A stretch of DNA of 64,000 bases from Selenomonas sp. (GTDB taxonomy: Bacteria; Bacillota; Negativicutes; Selenomonadales; Selenomonadaceae): positions 248,001-312,000 of the forward strand of contig JAKVOG010000002.1 of assembly GCA_022482925.1 (NCBI GenBank). Reading direction: 5' to 3'. Under the pieces are notes generated by a model. That model was not told where the DNA came from and searched no databases. It saw only the letters and a list, made by a program, of their open reading frames with translations. Below, in pieces: positions 10,533-49,837 of the stretch. Made by a program: the position numbers and the translations under genes. Numbering within the stretch: position 1 is the stretch's first letter; each line of letters starts with the position of its first letter.

Positions 10533-11213
10533 ATGGAAATGAGTATCGTATCTATGGATTTTCTGGCTGCGCTGGGATCCCTGATCCTGCTGGACCTGCT
10601 GCTGGGCGGCGATAATGCCGTAGTCATCGCCATGGCCGCCAATAAGCTGTCACCAGAACTGCGTCGCAAGGCAGTATTCATCGGCACGGCAGGTGCTGTG
10701 GTAATCCGTCTGGTCATGACGTTGATTGCGGTATGGCTGCTTACCATACCGTATCTGCAGGCAATCGGCGGACTTATCCTGCTGCCAATTGCGGTGAAAC
10801 TGCTGGTGCCGGCTGATGAGACTGGAGATGTCAAGGCTGCAGATAACCTTGTCAGCGGCAGTCAAGACGATCATTGTTGCCGGATGCGGCCATGGGCGTT
10901 GACAATGTTCTTGCCGTTGCGGGCGCTTCTCATGGAAGCTTCCTGCTGGTTGTCCTGGGGTTCTTGATCAGTATCCCCATCATTGTCGGTGGCAGCACCA
11001 TCATTGGCGGCATCATGGACCGCTATCCGGTCGTCCTCTATGCCGGCTCTGCGATTGCTGGGATGGACGGCCGGCTCTATGATTGCGCACGATAAGATCA
11101 TTGGGACGATGCTTACCAATGCTGCCGGTGACTGGGCGGCTATGCTGATCCAGGCCGGGATGGCTGCTGGTGTGGTGTTGATTGGCTATTGGCGTGCGCA
11201 TAACAGAAAATAA
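10533..11213 (+). CDS. TerC family membrane protein (probable Mn exporter), two +1 frameshifts
   Basis: LDLLLGGDNAVVIAMAA, DAAMGVDNVLAVAGASHGS, GWTAGSMIAHDK spread over three frames; removing one G at gccggatg and one G at attgctggg restores one ORF. Confidence 0.9.
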
Positions 11214-35347: not shown

Positions 35348-36295
35348 TTGGAGAAAAACAATGTATCCTTGCGAGGCAAGAACATCCTGGGTCTGGAAGA
35401 TTTCAGCCCGGAGGAGATCCGCCTTCTACTTGAAACCGCAAAGGAAATGAAGAACATCATTCATCGGGACATCAAAAAGGTACCGACACTGCGCGGTAAA
35501 TCCATTGTCACGTTGTTCTATGAGCCAAGCACGCGTACCCGTACATCGTTTGAGTTGGCCGGCAAGTACCTGGGCGCTGATGTGGTCAACATCACATCGG
35601 GATCCAGCAGCATCGTCAAGGGCGAGAGCCTGCGCGATACGCTCTACACGATCGAGGCCATGGGCGTGGATGCCATCGTCATGCGCCACAAGGCAGAAGG
35701 CGCAGCTGAATACGCTTCCCGCGTCGTCAGCCCGGTTATCCTGAACGCCGGTGATGGCGCGCATGCCCATCCATCACAGGGTCTCCTGAATCTCTTCACG
35801 ATCCAGGAACACAAGGGGCATCTGGAGGGGCTGAAGGTTGCCATCATCGGGGATGTGCTGCACAGCCGTGTAGCCCGCTCAGATATCTACGGCATGCGCA
35901 AGATGGGCATCGAAGTCCACATCGCTGGTCCGAAGACACTGCTGCCGCGTTTCCTTTATGAGGAGCCGGGCATTGTGATCCATGAGCGCATCGAGGATGC
36001 CATCGCCAATGCGGATGTCATCGAAGTCCTGCGTATCCAGCTGGAGCGCATGAAGGGCGGTTTGTTCCCGACAACCCGCGAGTATGCCCGCATCTTTGGT
36101 CTCAATGACACGCGGCTGAAGCTGGCGAAGGATGATGTGCTGATTCTCCATCCGGGGCCAATGAATAAGGGCTGGGAGATTTCTCCGTTTACGGCCTACG
36201 GCAAGAACTCTGCGATCCAGGAAGAAGTACAGAATGGCGTAGCAGTCCGTATGGCACTCTTTACCTTGGTTCTGACGGGAGGAAAACAGGAATGA
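35348..36295 (+). CDS. pyrB: Aspartate carbamoyltransferase catalytic subunit
   Basis: [52 protein letters not shown]. Confidence 0.96.
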
Positions 36296-37581
36296 GACTT
36301 GTAATCAAGAATGGCCGGGTCATCAATCCGGCAACGAAATTCGATGAGATCGCTGATGTGTTGATTGAAGACGGCAAGATCAAGGAAATTGGTGCGAATC
36401 TTGATGCTGGCGACGCAAGTGTATATGATGCTGCTGGCAAGATCGTGACGCCGGGCCTTATTGACCTGCATGTGCATTTCCGTGAGCCGGGGCAGGAAGC
36501 GAAGGAAGACTTCGAGTCGGGTTCTAAAGCTGCTGCTGCCGGTGGTTTCACTACGGTCTGCACGATGCCAAATACGAAACCGGTCATTCGATAGTGCCGC
36601 GCTGGTCCGCAGTCTGGAGAAACGGGCTGAGGATGTTGCCTGCGTCCATGTGAAGATCATCGGAGCAGTCACGAAGAATCAGGAAGGCAAGGAACTGGCT
36701 GAGCTGGGTGATATGATCCAGGCTGGTGCGGTAGCTTTCTCGGATGATGGTCATTTCGATCCGACCGCGAAAGTGCTGCTCAATGCCTATGACTATCTCC
36801 ATACGTTCGACAAGGTCATCATCAACCACGATGAGGAATCATCGCTGGTGGAAGAAGGCGTCATGAATGAGAGCCATCGCAGTGCGATGCTCGGACTCAA
36901 GGGCCGCCCGACCGTCGCTGAGGATATTGCGGTAGCCCGTGATGTCCTGCTGGCTGAGTATGCCGGTGCCCGCGTTCATGTCGCGCATATCAGCTCGGCC
37001 CGGGCGGTGGATATCGTCCGTCAGGCCAAGAAACGCGGCGTGCGTGTTACGGCTGAAGCAACGCCGCAGCACATGACGATGACGGATGAATGTGTCAATC
37101 TCTTTGACACGTCGACGAAGATCAACCCGCCACTGCGCAGCCAGGCTGATTGTGAGGCCATACTGGCAGGGCTCAAGGATGGTACGATTGATGCCATCGT
37201 CACGGACCATTCCCCGCATGCACAGGAGGAGAAGGACCGTGAATATGTTTACGCACCGAGCGGGTTCCCGGGACTGGAGACTTCCCTGGGAATCATGCTG
37301 ACGGATCTCTATCATAAGGATAAGCTGGACCTGCCGCTGATCATCTCCAAGATGACCTGGGAGCCGGCGAAAGGTTCTTGGTCTGGACGGCGGTACACTG
37401 GCAGCGGGCGCGAAAGGCCGATGTCACGGTTATCGATCCGGAACTCGACTGGACGGTCGATGCGGCGAAATTCTACACGAAGGGCAGCCACTCACCGTTT
37501 ATAGGACGTACGCTCAAAGGTAAAGCAATCCTGACTGTAGTCGATGGCGAGATCGTCATGAAGGATGGCAAAGTACTTTAA
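36292..37581 (+). CDS. pyrC: Dihydroorotase, three +1 frameshifts
   Basis: [42 protein letters not shown] / [31 protein letters not shown] / [14 protein letters not shown]; one extra base at cattcgat and at two gcgaaagg sites. Confidence 0.94.
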
Positions 37582-38677: not shown

Positions 38678-41600
38678 GTGCCAAAGAAAAAGAATCTTAA
38701 AAAGGTAATGGTTATCGGCTCTGGTCCGATCATCATCGGTCAGGCAGCAGAATTTGACTACGCAGGCTCACAGGCTTGCCGTTCGCTGAAAGAAGAAGGG
38801 TCTGGAAGTCGTTCTGGTCAATTCCAATCCGGCTACGATCATGACCGATACCCATATTGCTGACCGGGTCTATATCGAACCGCTGACGCCGGAGTTCCTG
38901 GAAGAGATCATCGCCAAGGAGAAACCGGATGGCCTGCTGGCAACCCTGGGCGGACAGGCTGGCCTGAATCTGGCTGTACAGCTCTCCGAGCGCGGCATCC
39001 TGGAAAAGCATGAGGTAGAACTGCTGGGCACTTCGCTCACTGCTATCAAGAAAGCGGAGGACCGCGAGCTGTTCAAGGAAACCATGCAGAAACTCGGTGA
39101 GCCAATTCCTGAAAGCACGATTGTTGAGGATGTCCCGGCTGCTGTCGAGTTTGCCAACTCCATCGGTTATCCGGTCATCGTGCGTCCGGCCTACACGATG
39201 GGCGGAACGGGCGGCGGTATCGCGGATAATGAGGAAGAACTCATCGATATTGTCATCAAGGGTCTCAACTACTCCATGATTGGCCAGGTGCTCATCGAGC
39301 GCAGTGTGGCCGGCTGGAAAGAGATTGAGTATGAAGTCATGCGTGACGGCAATGATAACTGCATCACGGTCTGCAACATGGAGAACTTCGATCCGGTTGG
39401 TGTACACACGGGCGATTCCATCGTTGTGGCTCCTTCGCAGACGCTGACGGACCATGAATATCAGATGCTCCGCAGCGCCAGTCTGCGCATTATCCGCGAG
39501 CTCGGCATCGAGGGCGGCTGCAATGCGCAGTATGCACTGGATCCGGACAGCAACCGCTACTATGTCATTGAGGTCAACCCGCGTGTCAGCCGTTCTTCGG
39601 CACTGGCTTCCAAGGCTACCGGCTATCCGATTGCCAAGGTCTCGGCCAAGATTGCCATCGGCTATTCCCTCGATGAGATCACCAATGCCGTTACCCAGAA
39701 GACGAAAGCCTGCTTCGAGCCGGCACTTGATTACTGTGTCGTCAAATTCCCGCGCTGGCCGTTCGACAAGTTTGTCTATGCTGACCGTACGCTCGGCACG
39801 CAGATGAAGGCTACGGGCGAGGTCATGAGCATTGACCGTCATTTCGAAGGAGCAATCCTCAAGGCCGCCCGCTCGCTGGAGATCGGCGTGCACCGCCTGC
39901 ATATGGAAAAGATGGACGAGTGGGATGATGCCCGCGTCAAGAAGAACCTTGCGCGCATCAACGATGAACGCATCTTCGTGATTGCCGAAGCCCTGCGCCG
40001 CGGCATCGCGAGCGTTGACGAGATCCATGAGATCACGAAGGTTGACAAGTGGTTCATCAATAAGATCAAGAACATCACGGATGTAGAAGTCCTGCTGGCC
40101 AGGGAGCCGCTGACTCCGAAACACATGCTGGCAGCCAAGAATGTCGGTCTGGCCGATGTCTCGATCGCTGAGATCACGGGCAAGTCTGCCGATGAGATCC
40201 GGACGATCCGCAAGAGCATGAATATCCTGCCCTGCTACAAGATGGTCGATACCTGCGCAGCCGAATTTGAGGCGGCTACGCCGTACTACTACTCGACATT
40301 CCATGCGCAGCAGGATGAGGTCGAGACTTCAACGGCCCGCAAGGTGGTTGTGCTTGGTTCCGGCCCGATCCGCATCGGACAGGGTGTCGAGTTCGATTAC
40401 TGCTCGGTTCACTCGGTCTGGGCGCTCAAAGAGATGGGCATTGAGGCTATCATCATCAACAACAACCCGGAGACCGTCTCCACGGACTTCGATATCTCAG
40501 ACCGGCTGTATTTCGAGCCGCTGACGACCGAGGATGTACTCAACATCATCGATAAGGAGAAGCCGGAGGGCGTCATCGTCCAGTTTGGCGGCCAGACGGC
40601 CATCAATCTCGCGGCTTCCCTGCAGAAAGCCGGGGTCAAGGTATTCGGGACATCGGTCGATGATATCGACCGGGCCGAGGACCGTGAGCGCTTCGATGAA
40701 GTGCTTACCCAGACGAAGATTCCGCGCCCGCTGGGCATCAGCGTTACGAATCTGGATGACGCGATTGTCGGTGCAGCCAATATCGGTTATCCGGTCATGG
40801 TCCGTCCTTCCTACGTACTGGGCGGCCGTGCGATGGAAATCGTCTATAACGAAGACGAGCTGCGCGACTACATGAGCCGTGCGGTAAAGGTCACGCCGGA
40901 TCATCCGGTACTGGTTGACCGTTACATGCAGGGTACTGAGGTCGAGGTCGATGGCATCTCCGATGGCGTCGATGTGGTGATCCCGGGAATCATGGAGCAT
41001 GTCGAGCGCGCCGGCGTCCATTCAGGCGACAGCATCGCGGTCTATCCGCCGCGGACGCTTTCCTCCAAGGTCATCTACACGATCATCGATTATACGAAAC
41101 GTTTGGCAGTAGCCCTGCATGTCAAGGGTCTGCTGAATATCCAGTTTGTTGTCGTCAATGACGAAGTATTCATCATCGAGGTAAATCCGCGCTCAAGCCG
41201 CACGGTTCCGTTCCTGTCCAAGGTAACGGATATCAAGATGGTCAACCTGGCAACGCAGATCGCGCTGGGGTCGACGCTCAAGGAGCTCGGCTACCGTTCG
41301 GGTCTGGTACCGCCAAAACCGTATGTAGCGGTCAAGGCTCCGGTATTCTCCTTTGCGAAGATGACGGATGTCGACATTGCCCTCGGACCTGAGATGAAGT
41401 CCACAGGTGAAGTCATGGGCATCGATTATCACTATGCCCGCGCCCTCTACAAGGCAATCATCGGCTCCGGCATCAATGTGCCGACCAAGGGCTGTGTGCT
41501 CTTCACGGTTGCCGACAAGGATAAAGAAGAGATGATGCAGCTGGCCAAGGCCTTCTCGGAGCTGGATTTCAAGATTGCAGCCACCGAAGGAACGGCAAAA

Positions 41601-41906
41601 GCCATCATGTCGATGGGTATCGATGTCGAGATCGTCGGCAAGGTCCACGAGCGCAGCACCGATATCATCGAGAAGATCAAGAATGGCAATATCGATATGG
41701 TTATCAATACGCTGACGCAGGGCAAGCATTCCCTGAAAGATGGATTCAAGATCCGCCGCGCTACGGTCGAGCATGGTATTGCCTGCCTGACCTCGCTGGA
41801 TACGGCCTGGGAAGTCCTGCGCGTCCTGTCCTTCATGCGTGAGCGCCGGCTGGTCTACTCGCTGGCTATCCAGGACTATGTAGGTGGCGGTGATGATCTT
41901 GCCTAA
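38678..41906 (+). CDS. carB: Carbamoyl-phosphate synthase large subunit, one +1 frameshift near 38800
   Basis: [31 protein letters not shown] then [32 protein letters not shown]; removal of one G in gaagggtctgg restores frame. Confidence 0.96.
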
Positions 41907-42660: not shown

Positions 42661-43594
42661 GCAGAACTGTTGATTTTGCGGATAGCCGCCTGCAGACAAA
42701 CCTGGCTGGTATAGCCATGAATACACCGGTACTTACGGCTTCCGGTACCTTCGGCTTTGGTGAGGAATTTGCCGATTTTGTCGATCTGCACCGCCTGGGC
42801 GGCGTCATGGTCAAGGGCACGACGCTCAAGCCGCGCCGTGGCAATGATGGCGTGCGCATCACCGAAACGCCGATGGGCATGATGAACTGCATCGGTCTGG
42901 AGAATCCCGGGGTGGAGATTTTCCTCAAGGAAACGCTGCCGCGTCTTCAGGCTTATGATATGAATGTCATCGTGAATATCTCCGGCAGTACCTGCGGAAG
43001 AATACGGCATCCTGGCAGAAATGCTGGATGTGCCCCGGCGTAGCGGCTCTTGAGCTCAACGTATCCTGTCCGAATGTCCGGGAGGGCGGTATCGTATTCG
43101 GAACCGATCCAAAGGCAGCTGCGGCTGTGGTACGGGAAGCGAAGAGCCATACGAAAAAGCCGGTTATCCTGAAATTGTCGCCGAATGTGACGGACATCGT
43201 GACGATGGCCAAAGCCGTCGAAGCTGCCGGCGCTGATGTGATCTCGCTGATCAATACGCTGATGGGCATGGAAATCAATATCCGTACCCGTAAACCGACA
43301 CTGGGCAATATCACGGGCGGCCTTTCGGGCCCCTGTGTAAAACCGGTGGCGCTGCGTATGGTCTGGCAGGTTGCACAGGCCGTCCAGGTGCCAATCATCG
43401 GTATGGGCGGTATTACCAGCTGGGAGGATGCAGTAGAATTCTTCCTGGCCGGTGCCAGTGCAATCGCTGTCGGAACCGCGAATTTCATGGATCCGGCCGT
43501 TACGATGAAGATCTGTGATGGACTCAATGACTATCTGGTGCAAAACCATATCGATCATATCCAGGATCTCGTAGGTAAAATTGAACTTGGCTGA
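42657..43594 (+). CDS. pyrD: Dihydroorotate dehydrogenase B catalytic subunit, two +1 frameshifts near 42995 and 43033
   Basis: [70 protein letters not shown]. Confidence 0.95.
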
Positions 43595-44980: not shown

Positions 44981-45024
44981 TAATTTAAGAGTTACGAATA
45001 ACAGGATCGAGGCAGGTGAGCAGC

Positions 45025-45753
45025 ATGAAAGATGAGACGATTGAACGGGTCCGGCAGGAGACCGGTGACTGGCAGTATATGCAGGATCTCCCCGAGGAAT
45101 GGCATGGGTTCTCACTGGACAGGACGGCTGCCATCGGCAAGGATATGTATACGCTGTACCGCTATTTCAATGAGGAACTGCATAAGAGCGTGACGGTCTA
45201 TTTTCACGAGGAAACCAATGAATACAAGGTCTGTCTGAAGATTGGCCTGATCGAGTTCTGCCGGATCGAGTTCATTACTCCCAGCCTGTCCGTGTTCGAA
45301 GATCTGCTGAACAAGCAGTTCGATCAGCTGCTGCTGGATATGGTGGAATTCAATCCGAAGACACTCAGCAGCATTGCCCATGATAAGGGAATCACGACCT
45401 GGGAGGTCGGAAAGAAGCTGCCGGAAACACTGGAAGGTTTTACGCTCTATATCCATCCGGCTCAGCCAGTGAAGATCAATAACGGTTCGTATATCATCAT
45501 TGATTATGTGGACTTTTCGCTCGAAAGCAGCTTTACGGTCTATTACAATATCTACCGGGATGAATTCTTCGCGGAGGCACGTATCTGGAATATCCCGGAC
45601 GTAAATTATGATTTTGATTCCAATGAACTGACGGAATTGGAAGAGAAGCTCCATGACCGGATGATTCCCCGCCTGAAGCAGGTCCGCAGCTGGGCTGAGC
45701 AGCAGGCTGCGGAACGGAAACAGAAGGAAGCAAAGGAGAAGGAAAACGCGTGA
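45025..45753 (+). CDS. Conserved hypothetical protein, translationally coupled to the next gene
   Basis: No recognised motif; 242 aa acidic soluble protein; stop overlaps start of 45750. Confidence 0.6.
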   Translation: MKDETIERVRQETGDWQYMQDLPEEWHGFSLDRTAAIGKDMYTLYRYFNEELHKSVTVYFHEETNEYKVCLKIGLIEFCRIEFITPSLSVFEDLLNKQFDQLLLDMVEFNPKTLSSIAHDKGITTWEVGKKLPETLEGFTLYIHPAQPVKINNGSYIIIDYVDFSLESSFTVYYNIYRDEFFAEARIWNIPDVNYDFDSNELTELEEKLHDRMIPRLKQVRSWAEQQAAERKQKEAKEKENA

Positions 45754-46751
45754 TTATTATCGATAAGGCAATTCTGCACATTTTGGATTTCAATTCAGGG
45801 ATGACCGTCTACTCAGATGAGGAGCTGACCATACAGGACAGCATCGAGACCTTCCTCCTGAAGCACATCGAGAAATCCTGGGGCAGTCAGGAAGCCAAAC
45901 CGGGAACGTTCTATGATGACAGTTCCTTCCAGAAGATGATGGGCGAATATCTCGCCGGTGATATGAGTTTTGTCCCGTTCTCCAAAGCCGTTACGCATAT
46001 GCTCGAAGATGCCTTCACCCATGCCGAAGAGATGGCATCGGCAGATGTTATCGTGGCCGATGTGCGCATCGATGACCAGCGCCAGATTGCGGTGTTCAAA
46101 TCGAACAGCCATATCGGCTATACGCATCAGGTCAACCAGACCGAAAACGGCATCAAGAACGAGATCATCAATCATTATTCCATCATGCCGAACCTGACCC
46201 AGAAGATGGATGAATTCGCGTTCATCAATACCGAAACAAAGGCGATCTCGGTCAATTCGAAGAAGTATACCATCGATGGCAACTCCATCTACGTGTTCCC
46301 GGAGATCCTGCTGGAATGCAGTCTCGCGCCTTCACCGAAGGAGGCCATCAAGAATCTGAGCAAGACGGCTGCCAAGGTGGCCGAAGCCTATGGGCAGGAC
46401 AAGGTAAGCACGGAAGCGGCGGTCAAGAGCTATGTGGCCGAAAACATGCAGGAAAGCGATGAACTTGACCTGGTGGATGCCGGCAAGGAGATTTTTCGGG
46501 AGAATCCGGCCATGCAGGCTGATTTCGACAACGCCATCAAGGATGCCGGTTTTACGGAACCGGTCAAGATGGACCAGGAAGCCACCATCAAGAAAGTATG
46601 CAAGCATAAGCTCAAGACCGATACCGGCATTGAGCTGACCATACCGACGGATTACTTCGATAACACGGAATATGTGGAGTTCAATAACAATGATGACGGC
46701 ACACTGTCCATCACGCTCAAGCATATCGCCAATATTGTCAATCGCGGGTAA
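45750..46751 (+). CDS. Nucleoid-associated protein (NdpA/YejK-like)
   Basis: IDKAILHILDFNSGMTVYSDEEL... FVPFSKAVTHMLEDAFTHAEEMASADVIVADVRIDDQRQIAVFKSNSHIGYTHQV. Confidence 0.75.
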   Translation: MIIIDKAILHILDFNSGMTVYSDEELTIQDSIETFLLKHIEKSWGSQEAKPGTFYDDSSFQKMMGEYLAGDMSFVPFSKAVTHMLEDAFTHAEEMASADVIVADVRIDDQRQIAVFKSNSHIGYTHQVNQTENGIKNEIINHYSIMPNLTQKMDEFAFINTETKAISVNSKKYTIDGNSIYVFPEILLECSLAPSPKEAIKNLSKTAAKVAEAYGQDKVSTEAAVKSYVAENMQESDELDLVDAGKEIFRENPAMQADFDNAIKDAGFTEPVKMDQEATIKKVCKHKLKTDTGIELTIPTDYFDNTEYVEFNNNDDGTLSITLKHIANIVNRG

Positions 46752-46778: not shown

Positions 46779-48585
46779 ATGCAGGTCAATGGTGATTTAG
46801 GAAACATCAAAACCTACCTATTGAAGGAACTCGAGGACCTCTATACACTCAGCGTTCCGATTGGTCAGCTGTCGACGCATGAGCTGAATGAACGCATGCT
46901 GGCAATCACGGATATACTGGACCGCGAAGTAGCGGTCTATATGAATCGTCAGGGCAAGATCGTACAGGTGTCACTCGGTGATGCGGATACCGTCGATCTG
47001 CCGGAAGTCCAGCGCCAGGCGCGCTCGGAGCACAGTCTGTCGGGCATCCGCTGCGTACACACACATCCCAGCGGGGATGTACGCCTGAGCGAGCCGGATC
47101 TTTCCTCGCTGCGCCGGCTGCGTTTTGACTGCATGGCCGCGATTGGACGACAGGATGGCAAGATCATCGGCAGTATGGGCTTCTTTACCGGCGACCTGCA
47201 GGAAGACGGGACGCCGGTGCTCTCGGTCTATGGTCCGGCCACAGAAAAGATACTTGACCAGATCAACCTCAATATGCTGATCACGGTCGTCAACAAGAAG
47301 CTCAATGCCCTGACCACCAAAAGTACGGCGGACTGATGAGGAACGTGCAATCCTGGCCGGGGTGGAGCGTACGGGCATGCGCTCTGGCCCTATCGAGGAA
47401 TCCATGGCCGAGCTGGAACGTCTGGCGGATACGGCTGGTGCGGTCATTGTTGGCCGATTCACGCAGCGCAAGGAAAAACCGGATGCCGCCCTTTTTCTGG
47501 GCAAAGGCAAGGTTTCCGAGATTGCGATGGAAATCCAGAATACGGGATGCCACGCTGCTGATCCTCGATGATGAGCTGACGCCGTCCCAGCAGCATAATC
47601 TGGAACAGATCCTCGGCATCAAGGTCATTGACCGTACGGCTCTGATCCTGGATATCTTTGCGCAGCGGGCTCGCTCGCGTGAAGGCAAACTGCAGGTCGA
47701 GCTGGCACAGCTCAAGTACAACCTGCCACGTCTGGGCGGGCAGGGCCTGGTCCTGTCCCGCCTTGGCGGCGGCATCGGTACGCGCGGACCGGGTGAGACC
47801 AAGCTGGAGGTAGACCGTCGCCGTATCTATACGAAGATACATGACATCGAGCGCCAGATCGAGGGCCTGCGCAAGAACCGCAGCCTGCACCGGACCCGGC
47901 GCAAGGAATCACGCATTCCGCTCGTGGCCCTGGTAGGCTATACCAATGCCGGAAAGTCAACGCTGCTCAATAAGCTCACGGATTCGGCCGTATTTGCAGA
48001 AGATAAGCTGTTTGCCACGCTGGATCCGACGACGCGGCATCTGGTCCTGCCGGAAAAGCAGGAGATCCTGCTGACAGACACGGTCGGTTTCATCCAGAAA
48101 CTGCCCCATACGCTGGTTACGGCGTTCTGGGCTACGCTGGAAGAAGTCCAGGAAGCCGACCTGCTGCTGCATGTCGTGGACTGCAGCAATGAGAATTACG
48201 AGCAGCAGATCGAGGCCGTCATCGAAGTTCTCAAGGAACTGAAAGCAGAAGACAAACCAACGCTGTTCGTATTCAACAAGGTGGACCGTATCGCCAGTCC
48301 CCATCTGCGTGAGCAGATGATGCATGACCGGGAAGCGGTCTGCATTTCAGCTGCTACCGGGGAGAATCTGGATGAGCTTCAGCAGAAGATCGAAAGTTTC
48401 TTCCAGGAAAGCCAGGTCCAGATGACCCTGCTGGTTCCGTTTCCAGGATGGTGGTGTCATCACGAAACTGCATGCGCTCAACGCTGTTCGGGAGACCGAA
48501 TATGTCGCCGAAGGGACTCAGGCTGCTCGTCAGCCTGCCGCTCTCAGAGAAAGATCGTTTCATTCCCTATCAGATAAAGGAGTAA
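46779..48585 (+). CDS. hflX: GTPase HflX with N-terminal JAMM/RadC-like extension; four +1 frameshifts
   Basis: N-domain SGIRCVHTHPSGDVRLSEPDLSSL; VERTGMRSGPIEESMAELERLADTAGA; GGIGTRGPGETKLEVDRRRI; LVGYTNAGKSTLLNKL; extra bases at ccaaaagt, acgggatg, cgtttcc, gactcagg. Confidence 0.88.
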
Positions 48586-48592
48586 GTATAAA

Positions 48593-49837
48593 TTGCCATT
48601 TTCTAAGAAGATCATGGACCTCAAGCAAGTGGTCCTGAAAGAATCCCAGCCGTTGTTCAATCACGTGGATGAAGTCGCCGAAGTCAATACGCTCAAGGTG
48701 CTTGACGCCATGCGTGAATGCAAGGTTTCAGAAGCGCATTTCAATACGACATCCGGCTATGCCTATGATGATATCGGTCGCAGCAAGCTCGAGGAGCTCT
48801 ATGCGAAGATCTTCGGCGCTGAGCGTGCGCTGGTACGGACGCAGTTCGTCTCAGGGACGCACGCGCTGGCTACGGTGCTTTTCGGCATCCTGCGTCCGGG
48901 CGATGAGCTCGTTTCGCTGACGGGCAAACCGTATGATACCATGCAGACGGTCATCGGCTACGACAACCCGAGCCCGGGTTCCCTCAAAGAGTTCGGTGTG
49001 CTCTATAATGAGCTGCCGATGGTTGATGGCAAGGTGGATATGGCGGGCATTAAGTCGGTCATCACGGAGCATACGAAAATGGTAGAGATCCAGCGTTCCC
49101 GTGGCTACAGCATGCGGAATCCGCTGTCCATCGAGGATATCCGGTCCATCACGGCTGAAGTTCACCGGATCAAACCGGACTGTGTCTGCTTTGTCGATAA
49201 CTGCTATGGTGAGTTTGTCGACACGCTGGAGCCGACGCAGGTGGGAGCCGATATCATGGCGGGATCGCTCATCAAAAATCCAGGCGGTGGACTGGCACCA
49301 ACTGGCGGCTATATCGTCGGCCGGGACAAGCTGGTCGAACTGGCTTCCTATCGCCTGACGGCACCGGGAATGGGGGATGAGCTGGGTGCGAGCCTGGCCA
49401 ATAACCGTCTGCTCTTCCAGGGGCTTTTCCTTGCGCCGCATGTCGTTGCGCAGGCAATCAAAGGCGCCTTGTTCGCTGCTGGTATGTTTGCTAACCTGGG
49501 TTACAAGACGCTGCCGCTGCCGACAGATGTCCGGGGCGATATCATCCAGGCCATTGAGCTCGGTACGGCAGAGAAAATGGTGGCATTCTGTGGCGGCATT
49601 CAGAAATATTCGCCGGTGGATTCGTATGCGGCACCGGAGCCATGGGATATGCCGGGCTATGCGGATAAGATCATCATGGCTGCCGGTACGTTCGTCCAGG
49701 GAGCTTCGATTGAGTTCAGTGCTGATGGACCGATGCGGGCACCATACAATGTCTACCTTCAGGGTGGACTGACGATGGAACATGCCATGATTGGGATCAT
49801 GGGAGCAGCACAGGCCATCGAAGATCTGGATCAATAA
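48593..49837 (+). CDS. Methionine gamma-lyase family (aluminium-resistance/YnbB-like) PLP protein
   Basis: TTSGYAYDDIGRSKLEELYAKIFGAERALVRTQFVSGTHALATVLFGILRPGDEL; CFVDNCYGEFVDTLEPTQVGADIMAGSLIKNPGGGLAPTGGYI. Confidence 0.92.
   Translation: MPFSKKIMDLKQVVLKESQPLFNHVDEVAEVNTLKVLDAMRECKVSEAHFNTTSGYAYDDIGRSKLEELYAKIFGAERALVRTQFVSGTHALATVLFGILRPGDELVSLTGKPYDTMQTVIGYDNPSPGSLKEFGVLYNELPMVDGKVDMAGIKSVITEHTKMVEIQRSRGYSMRNPLSIEDIRSITAEVHRIKPDCVCFVDNCYGEFVDTLEPTQVGADIMAGSLIKNPGGGLAPTGGYIVGRDKLVELASYRLTAPGMGDELGASLANNRLLFQGLFLAPHVVAQAIKGALFAAGMFANLGYKTLPLPTDVRGDIIQAIELGTAEKMVAFCGGIQKYSPVDSYAAPEPWDMPGYADKIIMAAGTFVQGASIEFSADGPMRAPYNVYLQGGLTMEHAMIGIMGAAQAIEDLDQ

Follow-up and report, generated by a model that had tools for sequence, protein, structure and literature searches.

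In the 64,000-nucleotide stretch of Selenomonas sp. DNA analysed here (hereafter, the window), the GTPase HflX is preceded by an extension of about 185 residues that is very probably a JAMM/MPN domain and that, by sequence comparison and predicted fold, is closest to the MPN domain of RadC. The best overall explanation of the observations is probably that of a JAMM (MPN+) metallohydrolase carried on the HflX N terminus and acting at the ribosome interface. HflX is a rescue factor for stalled ribosomes and has a part in resistance to macrolides and lincosamides. HflX and JAMM domains are each already known, and what appears new is the joined protein, with its conserved intact site, its wide distribution and its repeated loss of that site, all of which were absent from the open-access papers searched. 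This literature held no paper linking HflX with a JAB domain or JAMM, the lone paper on HflX and RadC being an S-layer study, and a 2025 review of HflX mentions N-terminal extensions in ‘several Clostridium spp. and Paenibacilli’ with no domain identified. An earlier mention may exist outside the open-access literature, and some members may already carry automated Pfam matches to RadC.

The open reading frame at positions 46779–47336 (+) encodes REVAVYMNRQGKIVQVSLG...SGIRCVHTHPSGDVRLSEPDLSSL; both the JAMM-like zinc-site pattern that the original prediction had read in it and a candidate upstream Glu are present, the latter being E50. The features of the extension are as follows:

46779..47333, + strand: N-terminal extension of HflX, predicted JAMM/MPN+ (RadC-like) domain of ~185 aa (Pfam RadC match, fold match to RadC 2qlc, HflX fusion in relatives)
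46926..46928, + strand: codon of Glu50, predicted general acid/base of the JAMM site (invariant in 42/42 sequences, also in A2; motif definition in PMC300881)
47058..47069, + strand: codons of His94-Thr95-His96-Pro97 (HTHP), two predicted metal ligands (invariant in 42/42; model strand 90–95)
47088..47099, + strand: codons of Ser104 to Asp107 (SxxD), predicted oxyanion Ser and third metal ligand Asp (S104 and D107 invariant in 42/42; model helix 105–114)

The full signature, E50-x43-H94-T-H96-P-x6-S104-x2-D107 (residue string E50...H94-T-H96-P-SGDVRL-S104-EP-D107), is an exact match to the JAMM signature EXnHS/THX7SXXD, where the zinc ligands are His and Asp, Glu holds the water, and stabilisation of the intermediate falls to the second Ser (PMC300881). 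Translated in six frames, the 64 kb contain the pattern H[STN]HPx6SxxD once, and none of 30 Markov-resampled windows contains it.

Comparison of the bare extension with Pfam gave RadC (E = 1.7 × 10−4) and then Prok-JAB (E = 0.004) as the top matches. Against PF04002 (RadC) the extension scored 21.9 bits as a protein, for a cut-off of 22.1, and 22.3 bits, above the cut-off, in a whole-genome scan that returned two loci, the extension and a canonical RadC on another contig. Against PF14464 (Prok-JAB) it scored 17.5 bits, below the gathering cut-off of 25, and the NCBIfam RadC match stood at 0.004. At E = 0.01, PF04002 matches 15 of 35 extension members, and at E = 0.001 six full-length relatives have no Pfam match within their first 180 residues. 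A profile built from the extension retrieves RadC-like proteins of 230–251 aa (E = 7 × 10−7 to 8 × 10−4), and profile-profile comparison with RadC (E = 5.4 × 10−5, with an hhalign probability of 67% only) places the metal sites in register, HTHPSGD..S..D on HNHPSGD..S..D. RadC is thus the best profile and fold match, with an HxHPSGD-x3-SxxD site and a preceding helix/strand with Glu; it differs in being a free-standing protein of 230–250 aa, whereas the extension is fused to HflX. We rejected the reading of the extension as RadC itself or as a RadC duplication, because canonical RadC is encoded elsewhere in the genome and the full-length RadC models TIGR00608 and NF000642 fail on the extension (12.2 and 16.8 bits vs. 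cut-offs of 133.85 and 180).

An AlphaFold2 model of the extension, for which the input was 35 window and relative sequences (pLDDT 88, pTM 0.86), resembles the JAB/MPN fold, with RadC nearest. E50 lies just ahead of a strand, H94 inside strand 90–95 with H96 just past it, and D107 in the next helix (105–114). In a Foldseek search with this model, the only PDB matches at E < 0.001 were three RadC MPN chains (2qlc, E = 1.9 × 10−4), to which the TM-scores are modest (0.35/0.47), and the next matches below RadC include CSN5, P. furiosus JAMM1 and COP9. The assignment to the MPN fold is therefore one made on a predicted structure. A PDB search by sequence gave nothing at E < 0.1 (best E = 0.17), the weak matches to AMSH-LP and Sst2 (E = 0.64–0.91) being aligned on the same HTHP..S..D stretch. 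Besides these matches, the extension has in common with the JAMM/MPN+ isopeptidases (AfJAMM, CSN5, Rpn11, AMSH, P. furiosus JAMM1) the exact EXnH[ST]Hx7SxxD motif, and it differs from them in lacking a ubiquitin-like partner nearby and in its fusion to a ribosomal GTPase. The modest TM-scores and the lack of a PDB sequence match at E < 0.1 are what favours a coincidental motif on an unrelated fold, but we find this scarcely credible, given that four comparisons converge on RadC/JAMM and that the conserved motif has the correct strand and helix placement; coincidence was rejected on conservation, on the fold match and on the absence of the motif in resampled windows. The profile, profile-profile and AlphaFold/Foldseek comparisons all agree on a JAMM/MPN fold, with RadC first.

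All 42 of 42 Negativicutes sequences share the five site residues E50, H94, H96, S104 and D107. Neither the predicted fold nor the conservation refuted the original prediction. Among 53 Firmicutes domain representatives (<60% identical; a 54th, L275, was left out as a doubtful match without the full domain), 47 have intact E/H/H/S/D and the other 6 are degenerate. This ratio is the honest figure, since the intact representatives were defined by the motif and its invariance inside that set is partly circular. T95, P97, L103, G59 and G67 are outside the motif definition, yet are invariant too among the intact representatives, between which pairwise identity is as low as 17%. Distances in the extension and in the HflX core are correlated (Mantel r = 0.80, 0/2000 permutations), which indicates that the two parts are inherited together.

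A front domain without the HxH metal site was found in three groups, apparently representing at least three lineages: L185/186/188/189 together with L190, in which HTHP is replaced by IY-TF and similar; L191/192/193/195, in which HTH is replaced by FTR/FTK; and L208 alone. Catalysis is dispensable in lineages that have the domain but no metal site, and retention of the domain after loss of the site in three lineages points to an additional structural role, in which the front domain probably contacts the ribosome. The same retention favours the view that the whole domain is an MPN-fold contact module for the ribosome, its metal site only structural or a relic, in the manner of the mycobacterial HflX extension, which disorders H68-H71 and whose role is purely structural (PMC12493154). 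We consider this unlikely, if deserving of weight, because all five catalytic residues are kept together in the intact representatives down to the lowest identities, which exceeds the needs of a structural zinc site, and because Glu and Ser are kept though they are not metal ligands. Furthermore, the mycobacterial extension, added at the same end of HflX, has just 39–58 aa and no JAMM domain, and acts by rRNA disordering (PMC12493154), whereas here a folded JAMM domain of 185 residues falls outside that short type. In a second alternative, the metal site would not be that of a hydrolase but would sense zinc, tying HflX activity to zinc supply. The ligand set could hold exchangeable zinc, and mycobacterial ribosomes are remodelled under zinc starvation (PMC12493154); this reading is nevertheless highly improbable, as the invariant Glu50 and Ser104 correspond to catalytic, non-ligand positions of JAMM enzymes (PMC300881) and no zinc-uptake gene was found among the neighbours scanned. 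The domain is more probably than otherwise a catalytically active hydrolase.

In the window, HflX directly follows the extension. The next frame starts DEERAILAGVERT, with GTP-bdg_N, GTP-bdg_M and MMR_HSR1 downstream, and the gene is read in the following pieces:

47333, + strand: extra base vs. the closest relative, separating the extension from HflX and probably a sequence error (alignment to L104; other housekeeping genes frame-broken)
47335..47544, + strand: HflX N-terminal (ND1, GTP-bdg_N) segment, first frame piece (Pfam PF13167, E = 5.9 × 10−13)
47546..48433, + strand: HflX core with ND1 end, helical domain and GTPase domain (GYTNAGKS), second frame piece (TIGR03156, PF16360, PF01926, coding-frame scan)
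48435..48533, + strand: HflX C-terminal piece, third frame (coding-frame scan, alignment to L104)

From one frame piece (ORF 47336–48577), HflX scored 440.9 bits with TIGR03156 (cut-off 216.75), and the N, M and G domains were all found (PF13167, PF16360 and PF01926). A full-length AlphaFold model matches ribosome-bound (50S) HflX over the core (E = 7 × 10−42), with a pTM of 0.66 that leaves the placement of the JAMM domain relative to the core poorly fixed. The protein thus resembles HflX, HflXr and GTPBP6 in having the complete HflX core and in matching ribosome-bound HflXr and HflX; it differs from canonical HflX, which has ~420–440 aa and no front domain of 185 residues. From the family, the HflX of the window would split 70S ribosomes with GTP.

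In 41/41 Negativicutes loci sampled besides the window (drawn from its genus, family and class, the collection holding 432 close relatives), the extension runs into HflX in one open frame of ~600 aa, the frames of L014 and L019 ending early at contig ends. These relatives include Selenomonas, Mitsuokella, Schwartzia, Anaerovibrio, Propionispira, Sporomusa and Pelosinus. The frame of the window was compared with that of L104, the closest relative, also a Selenomonas sp., in which the extension is 91% identical. The original prediction that loss of one base rejoins the extension to HflX holds, but the base differs: the alignment to L104 puts it at ~47333, and its removal gives ...TKSTAD-DEERAILAG..., whereas the proposed loss of an A from ccaaaagt, which would yield TKVRRTDEER, was rejected. 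Relative to L104, hflX contains more small indels, at 47373/47391, 47544, 48442/48446 and 48518.

These breaks, with the stop between extension and HflX in the assembly and the clustering of several frame-breaking indels in hflX and none in the two flanking genes (vs. L104), favour a separate extension protein, or an hflX that is a decaying pseudogene, in the organism of the window, a question apart from the identity of the domain. Such a genuine split or pseudogene is quite unlikely and was judged less likely than sequence error. In the same window, terC (10533–11201), pyrC (36292–37572), carB (38684–41900) and pyrD (42672–43591) are each split by apparent frameshifts, the assembly is 89% complete in 22 contigs where most relatives reach 99%, and the relatives have a single fused frame. 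Codon changes in hflX relative to the relative are mostly synonymous (74 vs. 16), with differences nearly all in the third position. Because the other genes are also broken and codon constraint is intact, the frame breaks in hflX are probably sequence errors.

Within the class, the domain was found in 107 of 151 genomes. When 21 class genomes without it were checked, 17 had no HflX above the family cut-off, 1 had a contig-end fragment and 3 had an HflX of 442–460 aa. In a phylum sample of 399 genomes, HflX was present in 305 and the extension profile matched in 81; 8 of these matches were RadC-sized frames (230–251 aa) only, leaving 73, about a quarter of the HflX-bearing genomes. The domain is also present in HflX of Fusobacterium animalis, with an intact site, HTHPGGNPHLSSVD, in a protein whose record names it just ‘GTPase HflX’. 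Viral and plasmid collections returned one contig and two Fusobacterium records, and no stand-alone form of the domain. In one record labelled as a Fusobacterium animalis plasmid (L289, NZ_CP077186.1; 219 kb, typed as non-mobilizable), the JAMM-domain hflX adjoins shikimate kinase, and this record may be a chromosomal piece. The contig, L290 of IMG/VR (15 kb, classed there as viral), has a coding sequence related to the extension (33% identity over residues 2–175) and is probably a misfiled bacterial contig. In L206 and L207, of one genus (and, by frame length, also in G252, G366 and G538), a single open frame of 700–830 aa runs from HflX into a C-terminal tRNA-dihydrouridine synthase-like domain.

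A tree of the HflX core (quick search, 110 rows) leaves 42 forks open and calls for 14 gains or losses of the domain; intact, degenerate and absent states are mixed over deep branches, with 15 changes in all vs. 43 in shuffles. A single early gain followed by many losses is plausible, and the core tree fits repeated transfer as well, the two being indistinguishable because many forks are unresolved.

The genes flanking the fusion are as follows:

45750..46751, + strand: 37-kD nucleoid-associated protein (NA37), neighbour (Pfam PF04245, E = 2.1 × 10−42)
48593..49837, + strand: methionine gamma-lyase-like PLP enzyme, a common hflX neighbour (Pfam PF06838, E = 3.2 × 10−181)

The methionine gamma-lyase-like gene also lies near JAMM-HflX in L167, L285 and L286. 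Upstream of NA37, positions 45016–45753 hold a 245 aa ORF with no Pfam match at E = 0.001, which has a 242 aa frame in L104. The scanned flanks, with genes for methionine gamma-lyase, AAA ATPase, IPP transferase, NA37 and LexA among others, contained no ubiquitin-like or E1-like gene, and the label ‘deubiquitinase’ is therefore unsupported beyond the type of the active site.

HflX ND1 displaces helix 69 of 23S rRNA, a loop of the helical domain extends to the peptidyl transferase centre, and the mycobacterial extension touches uL16, helix 38 and the H69-71 junction (PMC12493154); a domain ahead of ND1 should thus sit at the 50S intersubunit face. An intact JAMM motif on the HflX of many anaerobic, Clostridia-type bacteria suggests that ribosome splitting is coupled to peptide-bond cleavage. 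In the mechanism that we propose, H94, H96 and D107 would bind one zinc, Glu50 would activate water and Ser104 would stabilise the intermediate, so that the domain could hydrolyse a peptide or isopeptide bond. HflX in its GTP state would carry the domain to the 50S intersubunit face, where the target may be one of the proteins on the stalled ribosome, whether the tail of a ribosomal protein, a bound factor, or a chain that is modified or arrested, and hydrolysis would form part of rescue or remodelling. That the domain is a peptidase acting at the ribosome is a tentative proposal, to which we give slightly under an even chance. We put forward with similar reserve, as a possibility short of an expectation, a dual enzyme: a ribosome splitter powered by GTP that has its own JAMM peptidase and links rescue to a specific event at the 50S interface, either proteolysis or deconjugation.

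To our knowledge, substrates are largely lacking for bacterial JAMM domains, RadC included, and the HflX partner shows where to seek one. The natural losses of the metal site in three lineages provide proteins for comparison. A JAMM enzyme in HflX, with a site intact across Clostridia, Negativicutes and at least some Fusobacteria, would imply an unstudied hydrolytic step at the ribosome, and the dual enzyme, if true, would constitute an unrecognised branch of bacterial ribosome quality control in many Clostridia, Negativicutes and Fusobacteria.
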